From assembly GCA_026709065.1 (NCBI GenBank), contig JAPOTS010000052.1, positions 1-44,807 of the forward strand: DNA of 44,807 bases, read 5' to 3'. Shown in pieces: positions 504 through 12,914 of the stretch (positions within the stretch are counted from its first letter, which is position 1; the number at the start of each line of letters is the position of its first letter). The notes under the pieces were generated by a model. The model saw nothing but the letters and a program-made list of their open reading frames with translations, did no database searches and was not told the origin of the DNA. Position numbers and translations under genes: made by a program. This DNA is from Bacteroidota bacterium. Its GTDB lineage: Bacteria > Bacteroidota > Rhodothermia > Rhodothermales > Bin80.

Positions 504-1607
504 ATGCCCCCCACTGATAATCACCATGGCGACCGTGGCCCTAAACCCTATTTCCATGGGCGTAAAAAGATCATTGATGTGTTCAAAGCCGTACTCCATG
601 CGAATAAGCCATCAAAGACGGGTACCACATTTCTGGTTCACGGGGCACCTGGGGCGGGGAAAACAGCCCTACTCGCAGAACTCTGTAAAGTAGCAAAGCG
701 ATGGAAACATGCTCGCATCTCATTGACCGCCTTGCACGACCCAGTCGCAATGGCACAGGCACTTGGGAGGGCGTATGCCATTGACCTCAAGGCTTCTGTT
801 GAGGCAGGAATCATATACGTTAAGGGCGGCATAGTTGAGACGGTTGCAGGGCATGCTACACCCATTGAAATCCTCAAGTGTGCAGCCACCAAGCATGGAC
901 TCATCTTAGTGCTGGACGAAGCCCAAAGGCTCTCTACCTTTGCAGAAGGATCACAGGAGCATGTTCGAGTCAGCGACACACTGGACCTGATCCACAACGG
1001 GGAGTTAGAGATGCCCGTCATGCTGTTGGCGGGCGGGTTAAGCACAACCCTGGATGCGTTCGCGTCTTTTGGCATCTCGCGTTTCACCCGTCAATGCAAA
1101 CCCACGCTGGGGGGCTTGTCCCCACATGATACCAAAACTGTTATCAGAAAATTCCTGCACCACGAGAAGGTGGTGCCCCCTCCGCCCAAATGGATTAATG
1201 CAGTAGCCGAACAAACGCACGGCTGGCCACAGCACATTATTTCCTACGCATCCTCGCTATCCAACCATTTATCTGGCATAACCCCAGACATGTCAGACAA
1301 TGGACTCGGCAGCGTGCTCCAAGCGGGTCAAGAAGAACAGATTGCCTATTACCAAGACAGGTTCAAGGGTATTTTCCCGAGTGCACGCCGTGTGATGGCG
1401 AGACTGTTCGCCAAGAAGCCAACAGGCACGGACATGGACCCTAAATGGATTATTGATGGATTCTCGGAGGCTTACCCCGAGGAAAAAGCAACCGCACTGT
1501 TCAAGCGTGCTCTTGAGCAAGGGATCATTGATGTGCAGATAGATGGGTACTGCAGAATCCCCATCCCCTCGCTACGCTCTTTTCTGATTGATACGTATGG
1601 GCACTAG
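504..1607 (+). CDS. AAA/P-loop ATPase, paralog A (unknown role)
   Basis: A 367-residue ATP-binding protein. Residues 47-54 read GAPGAGKT (Walker A) and 133-140 read LILVLDEA (Walker B), followed by a sensor-1-like strand near 171-180. The C-terminal 100 residues look like a small winged-helix region ending in IPIPSLRSFLIDTYG. The architecture resembles the ORC1/Cdc6- or TniB-like group of AAA ATPases that load partners on DNA or act as regulators, but no partner gene is adjacent. It is clearly homologous along its whole length to the convergent gene at 1883-2995, sharing for example YFHGRK near the N-terminus, the GHA segment near 116 and HGWPQHIISY near 239. Its GC and codon choice look higher than those of the paralog. 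The ATG at 504 is used because the ATG seven bases upstream closes at once in another frame. ATPase activity is likely; the function is not known. Confidence 0.75.
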   Translation: MPPTDNHHGDRGPKPYFHGRKKIIDVFKAVLHANKPSKTGTTFLVHGAPGAGKTALLAELCKVAKRWKHARISLTALHDPVAMAQALGRAYAIDLKASVEAGIIYVKGGIVETVAGHATPIEILKCAATKHGLILVLDEAQRLSTFAEGSQEHVRVSDTLDLIHNGELEMPVMLLAGGLSTTLDAFASFGISRFTRQCKPTLGGLSPHDTKTVIRKFLHHEKVVPPPPKWINAVAEQTHGWPQHIISYASSLSNHLSGITPDMSDNGLGSVLQAGQEEQIAYYQDRFKGIFPSARRVMARLFAKKPTGTDMDPKWIIDGFSEAYPEEKATALFKRALEQGIIDVQIDGYCRIPIPSLRSFLIDTYGH

Positions 1608-1882: not shown

Positions 1883-2995
1883 CTAGTTTTGTCCATATTG
1901 ATCCACAAGCCATGAGTGGAGAGAGGGAATGGGGATGCCATAAAGCCCACTGTCGCGCTTATCAATTATTCCTTGCTCAAGCGCTTGCGTGAAGAGATCA
2001 TCCGCTTCTTTTTGAGTAAGGCCACTCTGCTTTAAACCATCTATGATGACTGTACGCTTCGTGGTATGATCTATTGGAACATCCAAAACAGCTCTTGAAA
2101 GAGCTTCCCTCAACTCATTGTCAATATCATGTGCACGCTTTTCATAATACATCTCCCGAGATTTTGCACCCTTTGAAAGCACAAACTCCAATCCCTCATC
2201 TGTCATGAGATGATTGTTTGATTTAAGATACTTCACGGCAGGTGCAATATAGGATATGATGTGCTGGGGCCACCCATGTGCTTGTTCCGCGATGGCCATA
2301 ATCCATGGAAGAGGATCTCCCTGTGCTCTCCCAGCTTTGATAAGCCAGTCTCGGATGACCGCATACTCGGACTCCTTATCAAGCCGCCCAAGTTGCACAG
2401 GACAGTTACGCATAAATCTCGAAATTCCAAGTGAGTTATAAGCCTCCTCAGTTGTTCCCAACCCCGCAGTAAGAAGCACGACCGGACGGCCTATATCTCC
2501 ATTGTGAATCACATCCAATGTATCCCGCACTAAATTTTGCTGATTAGGAGTATTTTTTAGATTTCTTAGGTAATGTGCTTCGTCAAGCACTAAGATCAGG
2601 CCAGTTTTTGGGGCCAAATGCTTGAGTATTTCTTCTGAGCTAGCATGCCCCGCGACACTCTCAACAAACCCACCCTCAACGAACTTTATGCCGCCCTTTA
2701 ATGCATACTCTCTGTCAATTGAGTAAGATTTCACAAGTGCTTGCGCCATTGAGGCGGGAGAATGTAAGTTCTTGATCACAATCTTGGCAACTTCCCATCC
2801 ATCAGACTTTGCCTGTTGAGACAGCACATCAAGTAATGCTGTCTTACCAGCACCCGGAGCTCCTTGTATCAAAAAGGTTGTTCCCTTATTTTTATCTTGA
2901 AAGAGTCTGAGTGCACTCACAAAGGTGATTATGATTTCTTTCCGCCCATGAAAATATTCAGCGGGTCCACGATCAATTATGAAACCTGAGCTCAT
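1883..2995 (-). CDS. AAA/P-loop ATPase, paralog B (unknown role)
   Basis: A 370-residue paralog of the ATPase at 504-1607, facing it tail to tail with about 275 bases between the stops. Walker A GAPGAGKT is at 45-52 and Walker B LILVLDEA at 133-140. The helix with AEQAHGWPQHIISY and the C-terminal IPIPSLHSWLVDQYG segment match the paralog. The two proteins share the motif order and spacing but differ at many surface positions, so this is an old duplication or two separate acquisitions, not a recent copy. No signal peptide or membrane segment is visible, so a cytoplasmic location is expected. The role cannot be read from the sequence; DNA-associated AAA regulators such as TniB-like or ORC1-like proteins are the closest general fit. 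Confidence 0.75.
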   Translation of the reverse strand: MSSGFIIDRGPAEYFHGRKEIIITFVSALRLFQDKNKGTTFLIQGAPGAGKTALLDVLSQQAKSDGWEVAKIVIKNLHSPASMAQALVKSYSIDREYALKGGIKFVEGGFVESVAGHASSEEILKHLAPKTGLILVLDEAHYLRNLKNTPNQQNLVRDTLDVIHNGDIGRPVVLLTAGLGTTEEAYNSLGISRFMRNCPVQLGRLDKESEYAVIRDWLIKAGRAQGDPLPWIMAIAEQAHGWPQHIISYIAPAVKYLKSNNHLMTDEGLEFVLSKGAKSREMYYEKRAHDIDNELREALSRAVLDVPIDHTTKRTVIIDGLKQSGLTQKEADDLFTQALEQGIIDKRDSGLYGIPIPSLHSWLVDQYGQN

Positions 2996-3488: not shown

Positions 3489-6400
3489 CTATCTGTAGCG
3501 AATCCTAAAGAATACACAGTAAAGTGCCGGCACAAGACCAAGCGTTAAGATCGTAGCAAAAATTAGCCCAAACATGATCGCAACCGCCATAGATACAAAA
3601 AGAGGATCCCCTCCCAACCACAGAGGAATTAGACCGCCTACAGTCGTACAAGTCGTCAATACAATGGGACGTAAACGACGCTGAGCGGCTTCAATGATTG
3701 CAGGTCCAGGGGCAAATCCATTTTCTTCAATCTCAATACGGATCCGATCAATTAAAACAATTGCATTGTTGATCACAATTCCTGCCAATGAAATCAGTCC
3801 TAATAAGGTCATAAATCCAAAGGGTTGACGGGCAATTATCAGGCCAATTGCAACCCCTGCGAGGCCAAGTGGAATGGTAAGTAAAATGATGAGAGGCTTA
3901 CGTATTGAGTTAAACTGTCCAACCAATAAGATAAGGATCAAGAGTCCAGCCAAGGGAAGTTTATCTGCGATGGCAGCATTGGCTTCGGCTGAGCTTTCAA
4001 ACGTCCCCCCGATCTCATATGTATATCCAAGTGGCCAAGCATCTTGCTGCTCTGCAAGCCAAGGAGCCAGTTCAGCGATCACCGAAAAGGCCGTCGCACC
4101 AGATGTTGGATCAAGACCTGACAATACCGAGAGCGTTTTGGAGCGATTCCGTCGAAGAATTTTAGAAGGCTCAAACGTAAGCGAAATATCGGCAACCTGA
4201 CTTAAAGCGACATTCTGGCCAGATTGAGCATACACATTAATTGATTCAAGTTTGCCGATATCATCTCTATCCCCGACTTCAGAACGTAACACTACAGGAA
4301 TTGCCTCAGTCCCCTCACGGTATTGCGTGACGACAGAACCTGAGAGTGCAGTTTGTAGCGAAATCGCAATGTCTTGATTGGTAATCCCTGCTCTCTCTGC
4401 CTGCGCCTCGTTAATTTCAACAACCAATTTTTTGGTTTGCTCTCCCCAATTATCGGAGATATTTCGGGTACCAGAAATAGAATTCAATTTATCCTTCACT
4501 TCATCCGCCAATTCAAATAAGATACCCTGGTCTGGCCCATAGAGTCGAATCCCAATAGGGTTCGCATCACCAGGGCCAGATGCCAGTTGCTTGATTGAAG
4601 TTTTGATTTCAGGGTAATTTGTATCAACATATTGTCGTAAACGATCCATTGAGGTCATCAACGATTCTGAATTTGTTGCATTACCTATCAAGACGGCCTG
4701 GCCTGGCCGAGGCTCAGTAGGATTGTAACCCAATGTGAATCGAGGAATTCCTCCACCGATAAAGAAAGCCCAATTACGAAGCCCCTCCCGTGATTCATTT
4801 GCCGACAACTCATTGATGGCAAACGTCTCAATATCATGAATGGCTTCTTCGGTGTAACCAAATGAGGTCCCATAGGGAAGCTCAAAATCTCCAGTAAACA
4901 ATAGCTCTCGACTATTGGGAAAGAAATTTTGCTCAACGAATCCAAAAAGTACAATGGTTAGAATCAGAATCCCAACAGCACCACCAATCGTAACAAATGG
5001 ACGTCTTAATAGTAGCTGTAAGAATGCCCGATAGCGCTGATAAAAAGGAGTATCATATTGATTTTCATCTGACTCCTCTTCAGGGTTTGATTCACGCCTG
5101 CCTTTGACTCTTAAATAGATCACACATAAAAGAGGAATCATAGTCAGAGATAAAACCCATGACGAGAGAAGCGCAATCGCAATGACCTGTGCAAGTGGGG
5201 CAGTATATTCTCCAACTGCACTCTCGGCAAGAACGATCGGAAGGAATGCAGCAATTGTAGTTAGTGACGAGACCAACAGAGGCACGCGGAGCTCTTTTGT
5301 GGAGGCTAATGCTGCAGTTCGCGGAGAGTCTCCTGACTCCATACGAACAAGAATGGACTCACTCATGACGATTGCGTTATCAACAAGCAACCCTAATGCA
5401 ATGATCAACGAAACCAACGACATCTTATCCATGCCGATTCCGAGGAATTGCATGATCATTAATGTGGCTAAGATCGTCATAGGGATTAATGATGCCACCA
5501 CTAATCCTGTCCGTAGCCCTAAAAAAATGAGCATGCATGCCAAAACAATTCCAACCGCTTGAGGAATGGAAGTCACAAAAGTCGATATCGCACGATCCAC
5601 CACACCAGGCTGGAATGATAGAATATCAAAAGAAACACCAATCGGGTACTGTTGCTCAAGGTCTGCAATCGTAGCAGTGATGTTCTCACCTAATTGGATG
5701 ATATTACCCCCTGTTCGCATTGAAATCCCCAAAACCAAAGCCTCATGACCGTTCGCACGAATCCGAACTTGCGGGGGCTCCGCATATCCGCGTTCTACCT
5801 CAGCAACATCACCCAAGAATACAGTCTCCCCTGTGCCAGGTAGCGAAATTAAAGTTTGGCGAATATCCTCAACGGAAGTAAAGTTTCCAGTCGGCTCCAA
5901 TACAATTCGCTCAACTCCAGTTTCCACCTGTCCACCAGAGATGATGATATTACTTGATTGTAGAATGTTTTGTAGTTGAGCTGCCGAGAGTCCTAAGCCA
6001 GATAGACGTGCATTGTCAAAATTCACATAAATCCGCTCTTGTTGAATTCCTCGGATGTCAACTTTTGCAACATCATCAATCTTGAGAAAGATATCTCGCA
6101 CTTGCTCAGCAATTTCTTTCTTCTCTGTTGCAGAAAATCCGTCAGCTGTAAGGGCAATCACCGTACCATATAACTCCCCTAGTTGGTCATCAACAAACGG
6201 AACGACTCCCTGAGGCAATTCACTCGTAACACTCTCAACCTTACGTCGTAGTAAATTCCAAACAGGAGGCAAATCGTTTACTGTTTCTTGTAGAGATACA
6301 GTAATGATTGATAATCCAGTACGAGATTCACTGCTAATATTTTTCACCTCAGGAATCTCTTGAATCACCCGCTCAATCCGATCGGTCACCAACAGTTCAA

Positions 6401-6575
6401 CACGTTCAGGACTTGCACCTGGAAACTGAGCCGTTACAATTGCATTGCGGATTAGAAACCCTGGATCTTCCGCACGGGGAAGCTCCAGATAAGCCGTGAT
6501 ACCAGACAGCGTAATCACTGTCAGTAGCACAAAGGTGGCCACACGGTTATCAATGGCGTACCGAGTAATATTCAT
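3489..6575 (-). CDS. RND efflux permease (AcrB/HAE1-like)
   Basis: A 1028-residue inner-membrane pump of the resistance-nodulation-division superfamily, the usual length for AcrB-like proteins. It exports small molecules from the periplasm or inner membrane using the proton gradient, as a trimer docked to the adaptor and the TolC-type channel encoded just upstream. The N-terminal helix is followed by the porter domain, the TM2-6 block (about 335-490), a second porter half and the TM8-12 block. In TM4 the relay motif reads GLLVDNAIV, with D399 kept and Asn at 400 where AcrB has a second Asp. In TM10 the position of AcrB Lys940 is Asn936 (GIVINNAIV). This is a variant proton relay also found in other RND branches. 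It is last in the operon, 7 bases after the adaptor stop. The substrate is unknown. Confidence 0.93.
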   Translation of the reverse strand: MNITRYAIDNRVATFVLLTVITLSGITAYLELPRAEDPGFLIRNAIVTAQFPGASPERVELLVTDRIERVIQEIPEVKNISSESRTGLSIITVSLQETVNDLPPVWNLLRRKVESVTSELPQGVVPFVDDQLGELYGTVIALTADGFSATEKKEIAEQVRDIFLKIDDVAKVDIRGIQQERIYVNFDNARLSGLGLSAAQLQNILQSSNIIISGGQVETGVERIVLEPTGNFTSVEDIRQTLISLPGTGETVFLGDVAEVERGYAEPPQVRIRANGHEALVLGISMRTGGNIIQLGENITATIADLEQQYPIGVSFDILSFQPGVVDRAISTFVTSIPQAVGIVLACMLIFLGLRTGLVVASLIPMTILATLMIMQFLGIGMDKMSLVSLIIALGLLVDNAIVMSESILVRMESGDSPRTAALASTKELRVPLLVSSLTTIAAFLPIVLAESAVGEYTAPLAQVIAIALLSSWVLSLTMIPLLCVIYLRVKGRRESNPEEESDENQYDTPFYQRYRAFLQLLLRRPFVTIGGAVGILILTIVLFGFVEQNFFPNSRELLFTGDFELPYGTSFGYTEEAIHDIETFAINELSANESREGLRNWAFFIGGGIPRFTLGYNPTEPRPGQAVLIGNATNSESLMTSMDRLRQYVDTNYPEIKTSIKQLASGPGDANPIGIRLYGPDQGILFELADEVKDKLNSISGTRNISDNWGEQTKKLVVEINEAQAERAGITNQDIAISLQTALSGSVVTQYREGTEAIPVVLRSEVGDRDDIGKLESINVYAQSGQNVALSQVADISLTFEPSKILRRNRSKTLSVLSGLDPTSGATAFSVIAELAPWLAEQQDAWPLGYTYEIGGTFESSAEANAAIADKLPLAGLLILILLVGQFNSIRKPLIILLTIPLGLAGVAIGLIIARQPFGFMTLLGLISLAGIVINNAIVLIDRIRIEIEENGFAPGPAIIEAAQRRLRPIVLTTCTTVGGLIPLWLGGDPLFVSMAVAIMFGLIFATILTLGLVPALYCVFFRIRYR

Positions 6576-6582
6576 TCAGTCA

Positions 6583-7704
6583 TCAGAGGTCAAGGAGACG
6601 AACGTTCTGTCCATTCACCAGAGTTGCCAGCCCCGCAGTTGCCACATACTCATTAGCGCTAACTCCATTAAGGATTTCTATACCGTCTGGGGTTAGTGAA
6701 CCAGTTGAAACAGTTCGACGCTCAGCAGTCGCAACTCCTTGAGCATCAACCTGAGAGAGCACAAAGACAAAACGTCCCGATTGATCCTGTTGAACCGCCT
6801 GAGGTGGGACGAAGACACCAGAGGAATCAGAGAGTACATCGATCAGAAACGTAACCTCAGCGGCCATTCCGGGGCGGACACCGACCAAATCGTCATCTCC
6901 GTAAAGCCGTACAATTACGGGAAAGCCTCCAGCTCCAGAAGCAGCAGATCCTACCTCTGTTACCACTGAGTTCAGTGATCTAGACGCAAGCGCCCCAAAG
7001 ACGACCTCTGCTGTATCACCAGCAGCGACACCCCCGATAAATACCTCTGGAACCGTGACTTGTACCTCTGGATTTTGATCGGTATCAATGAGAACGACCA
7101 CAGTTTGACCTATACCCACTGTTTCGTTGACATCAACGTTTACTTGGCTAATGGATCCATTAATTGGGGCGATGAGTTGAGAGTAGGCGACCTGTTGCTG
7201 TGCGAGGCGGAGAGCAGTCTCAGCGGACACCTCAGATGCATTGGCAGATTCAAAAGAGGCACGAATGGCATCTAGATCGCTCATTGATGTATTTCCACTT
7301 TCGTAAAGTGCAACGACGCGCTCATAGTTTGCCTTCGCATTGCGTGACTGTGCACGGGCTTGGGCCAGACCTGCCTCGGCCTGTTGTTGGCGCAGAACCA
7401 AATCACCTGAGTCAAGCCGAACAAGGACTTGGCCTCTACGAACTTGACTCCCGACATCAATCTCAACAGATGTCACTATCCCAGACACACGGAACGCAAG
7501 ATCCTGTTCCGATGCTGCCCGAGCAACACCTGGGAAGGTTCGGGTTAGCTGATTGCCAGCAACGGTTGCCACCGCGTATCGGACGGGCCGAATGATTGGG
7601 CTGGTGTCCTCTTGTTGATTTCCACAGCCGGTTAGGGATAAGCCGCTGACAATCATAAGCAGTGTGGCAATCCATTGATAATAGGGTATGTTTTTATGGT
7701 TCAT
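6583..7704 (-). CDS. RND periplasmic adaptor lipoprotein (HlyD/AcrA-like)
   Basis: A 373-residue membrane-fusion protein that links the RND pump to the outer-membrane channel. The N-terminus has a lipoprotein signal with lipobox LTGC, so Cys27 should be lipidated and anchor the protein to a membrane from the periplasmic side. A barrel-sandwich (biotinyl-lipoyl-like) half motif near 68-95 (FRVSGIVTSVEIDVGSQVRR) is followed by an alpha-hairpin of about 70 residues rich in Ala and Gln, then the second lipoyl half with APINGSISQVNVDVNE, and a beta-barrel/MP domain at the C-terminus. The start overlaps the stop of the upstream fusion protein by 4 bases (ATGA), so translation is probably coupled. 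The ordering adaptor-then-pump is typical of HAE-type systems. Confidence 0.93.
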   Translation of the reverse strand: MNHKNIPYYQWIATLLMIVSGLSLTGCGNQQEDTSPIIRPVRYAVATVAGNQLTRTFPGVARAASEQDLAFRVSGIVTSVEIDVGSQVRRGQVLVRLDSGDLVLRQQQAEAGLAQARAQSRNAKANYERVVALYESGNTSMSDLDAIRASFESANASEVSAETALRLAQQQVAYSQLIAPINGSISQVNVDVNETVGIGQTVVVLIDTDQNPEVQVTVPEVFIGGVAAGDTAEVVFGALASRSLNSVVTEVGSAASGAGGFPVIVRLYGDDDLVGVRPGMAAEVTFLIDVLSDSSGVFVPPQAVQQDQSGRFVFVLSQVDAQGVATAERRTVSTGSLTPDGIEILNGVSANEYVATAGLATLVNGQNVRLLDL

Positions 7705-10160
7705 CGTGCTTGCTCTAAAGCTTGGATGTGTATGTCCAGTTGTTCAATAAAGTTAGCTCTTTCTTCGGGGGATGAGAATGCTTCAAATTGTCCTACGGCA
7801 CGCTCAACTCTCTTCAAGTTAATAAGATAATCAAAGATGGCATTGGTGACTCCTCGCTGACTAATGAGAGCATTCGTCTGTGCTTGAAGAAGATCAACAA
7901 CATTCACTAGTCCTTGTTCATAGGCATCAGTAACAATATCCAATGACTGGCGAGCGGTCTCAGCCGCTGATTCACTTTCGCGGACGACAGCCAAACTAGT
8001 CGCGGCAAATTGAAGCTGAGCGCGAAGATTCTGTTCTATCCCTCGGGACGCTAATTCACGTTGAAGCTGCAATTGAATGAGTCTGGACTTGGATTGATTA
8101 CGCCGTGCATATCGGGCGTTTCCTTGAAAAAGAGGTAGACTCACTGAGACACCTGCTGACCATGGAAAATTAGGAGATTCGGTTGCAGGAAAACCAGTAG
8201 AGGGGGCTTCACTTCCAGCCCCTTCACGTAGGAGATTAGTTGACAAATTGCCCTGAAGTGCAACCGACGGAAGATAAAACGTTTGACGTGTAGACGATAC
8301 GATAAACTCTTGAGCTGCAATGGCAGCATCAAGGCTCCGAATTTCTGGGGAAGCATTAATTGCAACCTCTGATAAGAAGTTCGCCAGTATATTAAATCTG
8401 GATATCTCGGAGAGGTAAGTCGTAGACAGGCTGCCTTCAAGGAGAGCGCGTCCCTCTAAGTCAGATTCTGGTGTAGTGAATGGTTCATTAAGAGGTCGAT
8501 TAAGAATTTGGTTCAGAGCCGTTTCAGCAACAGAGCGTTGAGCAAAAGCCGAGATTCTGTCAGCCCGTCGTCTGGATAATTCACTCGTGAGTCGGAGACG
8601 TTCGCCAGGCCCGGCCGTTCCAATCCGCTCTCTCTGCTCAGCCATTTGTAATGAAGTGAGAGTGAGTTCAAGATTGTCTTGTTGCACTTGCTCAAGGGTT
8701 TTCGTTCGCAAGAGATTTAGATACGCTTCGGCTGCCTGTAGTACCACATCAAGTTCAACGGTTTCCCGAGATTGCTCTCTGGATTGCTGAAGAGATTTCT
8801 GAGCAGATAAGTTGGCATTTGCTCCAGGAGAATACAGCAATTGCTGAAAGGTGAGACGGCTATCAACCGAATGCTGCGGTTGCATGCCAAAGGATGATTC
8901 GGCCACCTCTTTAGAGACGGTGGTTCCTGTCCCTGCAATCTCCAACTGAGGAAGTAGCCCCGAACGTGCAATTCTTACATCTTCTAATCCTACAGCGACT
9001 ACTTGATCCTCTATGGCTAATTCCAAATTAGCCATGCGCGCCTCTTCCATCACGCTTAGGAGCGTGACAGAGCGCTGTATATTCTCTGGGGTTTCAAAGA
9101 GTCTACGCGCATCTAGTGCAAGATTCAGTGGAGGCACAATCGACAGGCTATTGAGTGTGCGCATATTGATCACTAAATCTTCATTTGTGGGGAAGGTTAC
9201 AGGGATTTGACTTGGGTCATCACCAAGAAGGATTCTGTAGATATTGAGTGCGACCCTTCTCGAAAATTGCTGCACATTGATGGATTCAAGTGAGGCGGCA
9301 ATCCCTTTCTCAACATCAGTAGCCGTATAAGAAAATGATGGTAGTCCACGCGCGGTAAGCGCCTGTGCAAGGCGCTGAAATTCATTGATATTCAATTGAG
9401 GTAATGGAGTCAGGTAGACTGCATCAATATCGTCACTCATCTGCTCAAGGGTACCAGAAGTAGTTGCGCCGACAGGTACAGGCACCAGCACAATGTCTTG
9501 CTCTAAGGCAGATTCGACAACATGATTAATAAAGGCTTCGTATGTGATAATCAATACCTCGTCAATCAACAGAGCAACCTTTTCAAAATAGCTAAGCTCA
9601 CGAAATTTGAGTAGATCCCTGATGATTGAACCAGATGGCGGGGCAATATAGGTGAGGTTCTCCACTCCACTTGTACCGTTAGTTTCTGGAAATCCCTGAA
9701 ATGCCGCATCAAAGATACCCCCAGCAATGACGGGTTTTGGCCATGGAGCCCCACGGACTGCAATATCGGATGCAATGATTCCTAAGGTCACGATCATTGT
9801 AACCTCCTCGTCTACCATCAACTCCAGAAGCGCACCCTGTACATCGCTAGATGTGATAAATTGAATATTGGGAAACGAAACACTGAATTCGTCTCGCACG
9901 AGCATCCCTAATTCCTGTTGAGTTAGGTCTCTTATTTCTGTTGCCAATGCGTTGGCAGAATCAGCGATAAATGCAATATGAGATGTAGGAGTTTCAATCT
10001 CTAATTCCTGCGCCTTAACATTGATGACTACAAGGCAGAGCAAGAAGGTGGTCCACACAGTTCGGATGTGCTCAGCCGTCTGATGAATTTTGAAAAAATT
10101 CATTGATAGTGTGAATTTACTTTTGGATTGTGGGATAGAATCTATGGAATCAGTCCGCAT
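7701..10160 (-). CDS. TolC-type outer-membrane efflux protein fused to an ABC_sub_bind-like domain
   Basis: An 819-residue protein with two parts. Residues about 58-345 look like a periplasmic binding protein of the ABC_sub_bind type (Pfam PF04392): HIAFIADSA opens the first Rossmann-like lobe, with a second lobe containing VYLTPLPQLNINEFQ and GLPSFSYTATDVEKGIAAS. Residues about 380-800 are a TolC family channel with two repeats of long Gln/Ala/Leu/Arg-rich helices, each followed by a beta-strand pair; the second reads SAGVSVSLPLFQGN and the last helices include YEQGLVNVVDLLQAQT. Residues 1-50 carry a long n-region and a hydrophobic core ending in VKA before QELE, a likely signal peptide. The ATG at 10160 has a good Shine-Dalgarno AAGGAG eight bases upstream; an internal Met20 is an alternative. 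It is first in the operon and should form the channel for the pump. TolC proteins are normally near 450 residues, so the fused sensor-like lobe is unusual. Confidence 0.88.
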   Translation of the reverse strand: MRTDSIDSIPQSKSKFTLSMNFFKIHQTAEHIRTVWTTFLLCLVVINVKAQELEIETPTSHIAFIADSANALATEIRDLTQQELGMLVRDEFSVSFPNIQFITSSDVQGALLELMVDEEVTMIVTLGIIASDIAVRGAPWPKPVIAGGIFDAAFQGFPETNGTSGVENLTYIAPPSGSIIRDLLKFRELSYFEKVALLIDEVLIITYEAFINHVVESALEQDIVLVPVPVGATTSGTLEQMSDDIDAVYLTPLPQLNINEFQRLAQALTARGLPSFSYTATDVEKGIAASLESINVQQFSRRVALNIYRILLGDDPSQIPVTFPTNEDLVINMRTLNSLSIVPPLNLALDARRLFETPENIQRSVTLLSVMEEARMANLELAIEDQVVAVGLEDVRIARSGLLPQLEIAGTGTTVSKEVAESSFGMQPQHSVDSRLTFQQLLYSPGANANLSAQKSLQQSREQSRETVELDVVLQAAEAYLNLLRTKTLEQVQQDNLELTLTSLQMAEQRERIGTAGPGERLRLTSELSRRRADRISAFAQRSVAETALNQILNRPLNEPFTTPESDLEGRALLEGSLSTTYLSEISRFNILANFLSEVAINASPEIRSLDAAIAAQEFIVSSTRQTFYLPSVALQGNLSTNLLREGAGSEAPSTGFPATESPNFPWSAGVSVSLPLFQGNARYARRNQSKSRLIQLQLQRELASRGIEQNLRAQLQFAATSLAVVRESESAAETARQSLDIVTDAYEQGLVNVVDLLQAQTNALISQRGVTNAIFDYLINLKRVERAVGQFEAFSSPEERANFIEQLDIHIQALEQAR

Positions 10161-10421: not shown

Positions 10422-12914
10422 TTAGTTGAGAAATTTATAGCTGAATTTGATTAATAGTACATTCACAGGTGGGAGGTCAAATGTATTAAGCAGTTGATTG
10501 GATGTCGTCTGATCATACGGCGAAACCCCAGCGATGTTGAATGGATCCAAGCCATCATCATTAGTGGAGCGTGACTGAGACCACACCACATACAGAACCG
10601 ATCCTGGGCGATATTCCCATCGTGCTACGGTGTTGGTCTGAAATCGGCTAAATGCAAAGTCATACGTTTTCGGCCACCCAGAAATCGGGACAAGTGTATC
10701 ACGATCTTGCAAGGCTTCAATATCTGTATACTGTCCACGCGCTGCAAAAAGCTGACCATAAAATTGGATTGACAGTCGGGGGGAGAGCGTAATCCCAGTC
10801 CGTAACGTGATGTCTGCTGCCTGCGTATTGCGATGTCCAAAAATAGGCACATAATGATTACCGAGAGCATCCCAAGGCTCACGCGCAGCGAGGACTTGAC
10901 TGAGCGCAGCATTGTGGGGCACGGGATGCCAGAATTCGGCTTCTGATGGATCTTCGTCACTTTCTTGGCTGATCAGCAGAGAGGAGCCGTCAAATCGAAA
11001 TGCCTCATTGGCGGCCCATTCAGTGGAATTATGCTCACGGCTGATTTGGGTTTCAATTGACATCGTCAGGTTTGGGGTTACATTCCACAGTAGCTCCAGT
11101 TCAGGGCTCAAAACTGTACCTCCATCACCAAGAACGGTCGTCTCAATAGATGGCTCAAAGATCCATTTACGTCGGGTATCTGTCCGATATTCAAGTTCAA
11201 AGCGCATCTCACGAGGGCGTGCTCGGGGATCCAAGCCTCGAGTTTCAAAATCAGTGTAACCTCCAAACAGATAGTCGGAAAACAAATTGAATTCAATTTC
11301 TTGATAGCCGCGAAGGATCCAATCGGAGAATAAAAATATTCCTAATCCATCTCCAAGAAGTTGATCATAAGAGAAGCCACCTCCGATAAATAAAAAGGCA
11401 GAGGCCCGACGAAAAGGTCCAAATGGATTCCCCCCATTAATTTGATTCTCTACACCTGCAGACAAATTGATATAATTGTCACGACGAAGTCGACCAAGAT
11501 CATTGGTGTTGTAGCCATTACTGATGAGTGCTAGATCAGTAGAAAAATTCCAAATACTTCGTTGACGCTCAAATTCGGTCGTTAATGCAAATCCCTGCTC
11601 TGATTCTCCATCTTCATTCCGGAGAGTGCCGCTAAGTTGTCCAGATAGGCTGTATTGATTATTAAGGATTCGGAAGTCCCAATCTGTTCCTGCGGTATAA
11701 CTCCGCTGGCCGTGAACACTATCATAGAATGTACCAATTCCACCAATATTAGAAAGGTCACCAATGCGCTGGCGTACCCGTGCTACCCCGTAATGATTCT
11801 GGGGTTTGAAGTTGTCACCAGTTGAGGCACCAAGGATCCCAAAGTCTAATCCTCGCGATGTGCGCCCAGAAAGTTTTGTAGCTCCCAAGACCGATGCCTG
11901 CGAGCCCACTCGCCGTGTATACAACAGGGATGCTCCTCGGACGACATTGAAGTTAAACACGGATATGCCTTCGGTAAAGAATGGGCGTCTCTCTGGAAAA
12001 AACGTTTCAAATGCGGTCAGATTCAATTCAGCAGGATCGGCCTCTACCTGACCAAAATCAGGATTGATCGTTGCATCCAAGGTGACGTTAGAAGAGAGTC
12101 CAATTTTGAGATCAGCCCCAATATCGGCGGTCACCGAAGAGGTGGATTCTTCGGAATCACGGAGGGCATTACCAACGGTGTAAGGAGAAACTTGGATATT
12201 TCGTCTGGGTCGAATTTCAACGATGCCCTCAAGGATGCCATATTGTGCAACCGTGCCACTACTGCGGTCGGCTCTTGGGATCAGAACCCAGTCACTGATT
12301 TCTCCAAGACGTGGAATAATGCGCCGAAAATTGATTCCCCAGCGCTGATTCGCAGAATCAGAAAAACGTAACATGGTTAAGGGGATTCGCATTTCAACGA
12401 TCCAGCCTTCGGCCGTTTGCCGGACATCGCTATCCCAGACAGCGTCCCATGAGGTGTCAAAGTCGAATCCTCCCCCAAATCTTCGATTCCCAGTATAAAT
12501 ACCATCGGCTTGGACCCCCGCGGCATTGACGGCAAAATTATAAGCCGTTTTGCGATCAAAATAGGAATCAATAGATGCTATGAACCAGTCGGCTTGGTTA
12601 TAGGCATCGCGGCGGCCAAGATTACGTCGGATGGACTCAGGTTCGGAATCCCGCATGAATGCACTGATAAATACCTGACTTTTTCCATATAGGATACGGA
12701 CTTCTGTTTTTTGTGTGGCAGGGGCCCCTTCGGTGGGAGAATACTGAGTAAAACCCGTCGCAACAGCTGCATCTAGCCAAGCGGGTTCGTTTAAGACACC
12801 ATCAATCTGGATTTCTTGGGTGACGTAAGTCGCCGAGAGAACACACTCTTCGGGGCACAGAGGTGCACCCAATGGTAGAACATTTGTAAAAATAGTTACA
12901 AGCAAGATGAGCAT
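10422..12914 (-). CDS. DUF5916 outer-membrane protein with CBM9-like N-terminal domain
   Basis: An 830-residue exported protein. The N-terminus is hydrophobic (LILLVTIFTNVLPLG) and acts as a signal peptide. Residues about 33-215 form a carbohydrate-binding family 9/DOMON-like beta-sandwich, starting with IQIDGVLNEPAWLDAA and containing VFISAFMRD and GWIVEMRIPLTMLRF, the usual markers of this module. The remainder (about 230-830) is a series of alternating amphipathic strands rich in aromatic residues that ends in KFSYKFLN, as expected for an outer-membrane beta-barrel; this pairing is the DUF5916 arrangement known from Bacteroidota and related phyla. Its substrate is not known; binding of a polymer or a role in surface processing has been supposed for the family. 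It begins 40 bases after the rnhA stop on the same strand. Confidence 0.85.
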   Translation of the reverse strand: MLILLVTIFTNVLPLGAPLCPEECVLSATYVTQEIQIDGVLNEPAWLDAAVATGFTQYSPTEGAPATQKTEVRILYGKSQVFISAFMRDSEPESIRRNLGRRDAYNQADWFIASIDSYFDRKTAYNFAVNAAGVQADGIYTGNRRFGGGFDFDTSWDAVWDSDVRQTAEGWIVEMRIPLTMLRFSDSANQRWGINFRRIIPRLGEISDWVLIPRADRSSGTVAQYGILEGIVEIRPRRNIQVSPYTVGNALRDSEESTSSVTADIGADLKIGLSSNVTLDATINPDFGQVEADPAELNLTAFETFFPERRPFFTEGISVFNFNVVRGASLLYTRRVGSQASVLGATKLSGRTSRGLDFGILGASTGDNFKPQNHYGVARVRQRIGDLSNIGGIGTFYDSVHGQRSYTAGTDWDFRILNNQYSLSGQLSGTLRNEDGESEQGFALTTEFERQRSIWNFSTDLALISNGYNTNDLGRLRRDNYINLSAGVENQINGGNPFGPFRRASAFLFIGGGFSYDQLLGDGLGIFLFSDWILRGYQEIEFNLFSDYLFGGYTDFETRGLDPRARPREMRFELEYRTDTRRKWIFEPSIETTVLGDGGTVLSPELELLWNVTPNLTMSIETQISREHNSTEWAANEAFRFDGSSLLISQESDEDPSEAEFWHPVPHNAALSQVLAAREPWDALGNHYVPIFGHRNTQAADITLRTGITLSPRLSIQFYGQLFAARGQYTDIEALQDRDTLVPISGWPKTYDFAFSRFQTNTVARWEYRPGSVLYVVWSQSRSTNDDGLDPFNIAGVSPYDQTTSNQLLNTFDLPPVNVLLIKFSYKFLN

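Follow-up and report, generated by a model that had tools for sequence, protein, structure and literature searches.

A putative subfamily of TolC-type outer membrane factors with a fused periplasmic-binding domain

Introduction

Outer membrane factors (OMFs) such as TolC, OprM and CusC are usually regarded as passive ducts that are opened by an adaptor, and to our knowledge no tripartite pump has direct signal control at its outer-membrane end. The protein discussed here is encoded at positions 7701-10160, minus strand, of a 44,807-nucleotide contig from a Bacteroidota bacterium (JAPOTS010000052.1, assembly GCA_026709065.1; "the window" below means this whole stretch). Like the OMFs named above, it has two OEP repeats and the TolC fold, and its gene stands beside those of an adaptor and a resistance-nodulation-division (RND) permease. 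Unlike them, it has a type I periplasmic-binding (PBP) domain of about 300 residues between the signal peptide and the channel.

Three other described systems are close enough to be compared. The TrpX-type substrate-binding proteins (SBPs), among them S. pneumoniae SP1069 (3lft), V. cholerae VC_1101 (3lkv) and C. difficile CD0873 (6hni), share the fold of both lobes with the fused PBP (Z about 25). The fused PBP differs from them in that it is a covalent part of a channel and its ligand residues have been replaced. The ligand-contact residues are known for importers of the TrpX/ABC_sub_bind family (PMC9382623, PMC6816091) and are T108, A127, T129, D152 and N233 in TrpX (PMC9382623). Histidine kinases of the same phylum carry the same Pfam domain at their N-terminus, likewise without the importer Asp-Asn motif, but their PBP domains form a separate clade and the output is a kinase, not a channel. 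In E. coli, the accessory lipoprotein YbjP binds TolC at the equatorial belt and lies around the equatorial domain of the unlipidated channel in a 3:3 ratio (PMC13082787, PMC13095208). We infer the same location and ratio for the fused PBP, although YbjP is a lipoprotein in its own right, restricted to some Enterobacterales, and the fused PBP is part of the same chain as the channel.

No publication describing a PBP-TolC fusion was found in the open-access literature, though one may exist in a subscription paper or in a domain-architecture database. The accessible part of a 2021 review of tripartite pumps makes no mention of a periplasmic-binding domain. The fusion and its breadth appear to be undescribed in the searchable literature; each module is already known, and database records exist under generic names. 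For example, the fusion protein of Sulfuricurvum kujiense is labelled "ABC transporter substrate binding protein" and that of Cetobacterium somerae "TolC family protein".

Architecture of the fusion protein and its operon

A sequence-only reading of the window, which gave no strand, had described a signal peptide, a PBP-like domain and a TolC channel in one protein that leads an RND operon. This description was borne out by the single frame, by the two predicted folds and by the adaptor and permease genes that follow on the same strand. The two domains stood, but their limits moved from residues 58-345 and 380-800 to 58-354 and 365-797. The features of the operon are as follows.

7701..10160, minus strand: PBP-OMF fusion protein, 819 residues (frame, Pfam, AlphaFold2, structure matches, same-length homologs)
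10011..10160, minus strand: N-terminal leader and signal peptide, residues 1-50 (hydrophobic stretch read from the sequence)
9099..9989, minus strand: type I PBP domain, residues 58-354 (profile, structure matches, Pfam ABC_sub_bind)
9069..9164, minus strand: spacer from N332 to the TolC start, residues 333-364, overlapping the last PBP helices (homolog alignment)
7770..9068, minus strand: TolC-type OMF domain, residues 365-797 (Pfam OEP, TolC structure matches)
6583..7704, minus strand: RND periplasmic adaptor (membrane fusion) protein, 373 residues, lipobox ...LTGC (TIGR01730 RND_mfp, 3.1e-58)
3489..6575, minus strand: RND permease, 1028 residues (PF00873 ACR_tran, 3.3e-173)

The fusion gene is read from 10160 to 7701 as one frame with an ATG start and no internal stop codon; translation could alternatively begin at an internal ATG (residue 20). 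The signal-peptide-like hydrophobic segment covers about residues 30-50 and is probably cleaved at ...VKA-Q, judging from the sequence. A leader that ends in A-Q or S-Q and has no lipobox cysteine is common to the homologs, so the mature fusion channel, like E. coli TolC, probably carries no lipid.

The channel half is readily recognized. Pfam OEP (PF02321) matches the protein in two repeats at the family cut-off (5.4e-41), and the repeats were found in all 20 homologs of the aligned set. The Pfam match of the N-terminal half to ABC_sub_bind (PF04392) covers residues 234-347, only the second half of the domain (1.5e-6), and its score of 28.2 bits is barely over the gathering cut-off of 25.9. 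Since this match is thin by itself, the domain was tested further. A profile built from 17 homologous PBP halves matches 3lkv (2.1e-12), 3lft (3.7e-7) and 6hni (2.5e-6) over both lobes. AlphaFold2 was run on a 17-row alignment from which plasmid-derived rows were left out, and gave a mean predicted local distance difference test (pLDDT) score of 82.2 for the full-length protein and 91.3 for the PBP alone (residues 56-352). In the full-length model the best match of residues 58-355 is 3lkv (Z 25.2, 285 residues). The PBP modelled alone matches 3lkv, 6hni and 3lft with Z of 25.4, 24.9 and 24.7, and the next PBP group follows at 17.8. The channel part has the expected beta strands and long helices and matches TolC, OprM and CusC with Z of 26-29; for residues 362-797 Z is 28-29 against TolC structures, with about 400 residues aligned. 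As modelled, the N-terminal domain is a two-lobe type I PBP fold to which the TrpX-type structures are closest, and the sequence-only reading's proviso that these residues might form no such fold falls away.

The fusion gene heads the operon of a tripartite RND pump. It shares 4 bases with the adaptor gene, and the permease gene starts seven bases past the adaptor gene, all on the same strand. The match of the permease to the multidrug-type NCBIfam RND_permease_2 falls below the cut-off. In other respects the pump is an ordinary RND efflux pump whose substrates are probably toxic compounds. An unusual RNA fold was looked for in the leader 5' of the fusion gene and none was found (z -0.55), and promoter- and terminator-like sites are about as frequent as in shuffled sequence.

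Distribution and ancestry

The genome that contains the window has one copy of the fusion gene. Among nine other genomes of the same genus the gene is present in four (full-length in three, broken by contig ends in one) and absent from five, which indicates an accessory system. Across 395 evenly sampled genomes of the phylum, the PBP half was matched in 18; the matching frame is 793-1013 residues long in 17 of them and is interrupted by a contig end in the eighteenth. Named genomes yielded no relatives when scanned with the window protein alone, and about 30 Bacteroidota records that carry the fusion when scanned with a three-member alignment. Most are Flavobacteriaceae (Psychroserpens, Aquimarina, Kordia, Flagellimonas, Formosa, Robiginitalea and Leptobacterium), and the same scan found the fusion in Roseivirga and in a Rhodothermaceae metagenome-assembled genome (MAG). 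A search of plasmids added Sulfuricurvum kujiense (Campylobacterota) and Cetobacterium somerae (Fusobacteriota). The same two domains occur together at about 50 other loci. One member of the Flavobacteriaceae-type clade (L097) lies in a MAG named Alcanivoracaceae, by transfer to Gammaproteobacteria or on a misbinned contig.

Substitutions that separate the window gene from its closest relatives fall mainly at third codon positions, in the PBP and the linker as well as in the TolC part, and the PBP is under purifying selection. Together with frames of the same length in related genomes, which exclude a frameshift or an assembly join, this disposes of the sequence-only reading's reservation that two genes had been joined in error.

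Against a profile built from 12 fused TolC halves, the held-out Sulfuricurvum protein scores 362 bits and the held-out Cetobacterium proteins 254-260 bits; the best unfused TolC reaches 145. In a tree of TolC halves, the 29 fused sequences stand apart from 33 unfused OMFs with a support of 100, and the absence of a lipobox also sets the fused proteins apart from lipidated OMFs such as OprM and CusC. Set against stand-alone SBPs and kinase domains, the fused PBPs group in a single clade (99), and their tree repeats the main branches of the TolC-half tree in a similar order. These trees are quick ones with long branches, and their sampling is mostly Bacteroidota. One ancient fusion, followed by shared descent with some transfer, is the simplest reading of them, which they support but do not prove. 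The PBP-OMF proteins would then be a distinct, unnamed subfamily of TolC-type OMFs that occurs in three phyla.

The order fusion gene, adaptor, RND permease is found in 48 of 51 loci, with intergenic gaps mostly of -4 to +60 bases. There are three exceptions. In Sulfuricurvum the fusion gene and a HlyD-type adaptor gene are followed by an ABC-2 exporter, with no RND pump, so one channel type serves two motors. At L040 an adaptor or permease was not found nearby and a gene for a GntR/UTRA regulator adjoins, and L095 is interrupted by a contig end. TetR genes precede the fusion gene in Sulfuricurvum and the L043-L046 group, and a MarR-like gene is present in L042; neighbours of these types are usual for the efflux of toxic compounds.

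Attachment of the PBP domain to the channel

N332 is a conserved residue at the PBP's end; 32-34 residues lie between it and the TolC part in 46 of the 47 homologs aligned, which represent three phyla. A floppy tether would be expected to vary, so the fixed length suggests that the PBP acts on the channel. R301 and L305 on an N-lobe helix point in the same direction, as they are kept in all fused proteins that have letters at these positions, including the reduced domains of Cetobacterium. The arginine at position 301 is absent from stand-alone SBPs and kinase domains. The N-terminus of TolC sits at the equatorial belt, where YbjP binds, and this position also speaks for an action of the PBP on the channel.

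Ligand binding

At the positions of the five TrpX contact residues the window protein has I128, G148, F150, P174/P175 and P254. No importer-type contact residue is generally kept in the fused domains; this mapping comes from sequence-profile alignments at 15-25% identity, with possible one-residue offsets in places. Of 16 stand-alone SBPs of the phylum, 15 have the importer Asp-Asn motif, which is missing from all 14 fused domains and all 5 kinase domains compared. The loss of the contact residues makes an amino-acid ligand unlikely. Cleft loops, as defined from the secondary structure of the model, are not better conserved than other loops, and the PBP evolves faster than the channel. In the Flavobacteriaceae clade the cleft positions N130, G148, N151 and G253 are nearly invariant. 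On these sequence comparisons the domain may bind a lineage-specific ligand or none.

The four stand-alone relatives examined in the phylum adjoin an importer permease and an ATPase. The fused PBP does not; no such linkage was found in the window operon, which encodes RND efflux. An amino-acid importer was accordingly rejected as a reading of the fused PBP, given this operon and the loss of both the contact residues and the Asp-Asn motif. Elsewhere in the phylum, two 945-residue proteins (L078:212-3049 and L080:3795-6632) appear to fuse an ABC importer permease with two ABC_sub_bind domains, and their genes adjoin an ATPase gene.

A sensory use of the domain has a precedent, for the five other multi-domain ABC_sub_bind reading frames examined in the phylum, whose output was not known beforehand, all proved to be histidine kinases with the domain at the N-terminus. 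The proposal of the sequence-only reading that the PBP could sense or deliver the substrate therefore fares unevenly: sensing has this precedent yet the contact residues are lost, and delivery is disfavoured.

The Cetobacterium domain lacks a beta-alpha-beta unit of lobe 2, and ABC_sub_bind is no longer detected in it by Pfam. The two Cetobacterium somerae plasmid channels (L030:6509-8689 and L031:6401-8572) are about 75 residues shorter. They look like a natural reduction of the PBP domain.

Possible roles of the PBP domain

It is proposed that a single, old fusion event placed a TrpX-type PBP domain before a TolC channel. The mature protein would be trimeric like TolC, and its three PBP domains would hang as a collar around the equatorial belt, immediately below the outer membrane, each attached to the channel by the spacer of fixed length. 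The collar would act on the channel by controlling or stabilising adaptor docking or opening. In at least some lineages the lobes might open and close on a periplasmic small molecule, not a free amino acid, and so modulate the channel; a role as a substrate-delivery protein is excluded in this proposal. That the PBP-bearing OMFs form a subfamily in which a fixed collar affects the docking, stability or opening of the channel, with ligand control possible, is the best-supported reading, to which we give an even chance. Several observations weigh against it. The predicted template modelling score (pTM) of the full-length model is 0.67, so the contact between PBP and channel is putative. R301 may be structural within the PBP only. 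The TrpX ligand residues have disappeared, and the positions that correspond to them show no more conservation than the remainder of the domain; both points weaken ligand gating. In addition, Cetobacterium has dispensed with part of lobe 2.

The main rival is a purely structural accessory, in which a PBP that no longer binds a ligand serves as a fixed collar and keeps the unlipidated channel in place, or stable, at the outer membrane or peptidoglycan. Its position would be comparable to that of E. coli YbjP or of the N-terminal lipid of OprM and CusC. The lost contact residues, the ordinary conservation of the cleft loops and the reduced lobe of Cetobacterium all fit such a role, as do the N-termini without a lipobox, the fixed spacer and the location of YbjP at the equatorial domain. 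A two-lobe domain would be a costly scaffold, however, and both lobes are whole in nearly all members at identities down to about 20%. The four nearly invariant cleft residues of the Flavobacteriaceae clade also look like a lineage-specific pocket. The purely structural role is a tentative alternative that deserves serious attention.

The more specific possibility of a ligand-gated efflux exit duct, in which three PBPs close on a periplasmic molecule, perhaps a self-made or toxic one, and thereby control docking or opening, letting an RND or ABC pump answer a signal directly at its outer-membrane end, is on present evidence rather unlikely.

Capture and delivery is improbable; here the PBP would bind the efflux substrate in the periplasm and transfer it to the channel or pump, in the way that SBPs of importers supply their permeases. 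The fold does belong to an SBP family and the operon does include a pump. The domain is attached near the outer membrane end, though, far from the sites near the inner membrane where RND pumps take up their substrates, and no lateral opening in the wall of TolC is known. The pocket is poorly conserved, and Sulfuricurvum pairs the same channel type with an ABC exporter, not an RND pump. An artefact, either a sequencing error or misassembly that joined two genes or an ABC_sub_bind match by chance, has next to no probability and was ruled out, as its one support, the marginal Pfam score, is set against the same architecture at the other loci, a PBP fold at Z 25 and coding constraint that runs through the linker.

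Other genes near the fusion loci

In about 20 loci, almost exclusively of Flavobacteriaceae, a small potassium-channel-like gene comes directly after the permease gene and is read from the permease strand (Ion_trans_2, 6.9e-14; filter TIGYG/TLGYG; for example L038:1626-2297, minus strand, and L084:13562-14239). There is no such gene after the permease in the window operon. Four loci (L049, L089, L092 and L112) have a further downstream gene family on the same strand, of which the example L049:13569-14648 matches guanylate cyclase.

In the window, a gene for a DUF5916/CBM9-like protein of outer-membrane type (10422-12914, minus strand) lies on the fusion gene's strand, 261 bases upstream. Beyond the 3' end of the pump operon are two paralogous AAA ATPase genes (504-1607, plus strand, and 1883-2995, minus strand) whose products are 46% identical and of the AAA_22/AAA_16 type, one with weak TniB-like similarity.

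Conclusions

If the proposed role of the collar is true, a conserved ligand-binding fold at a rigid distance from the channel would mean that a regulatory or structural collar can be part of the duct itself. The subfamily reaches across three phyla or more and works with inner-membrane motors of two kinds. Since YbjP was recently discovered on E. coli TolC, the equatorial site, where the fused PBP domains would lie, is a topical one.

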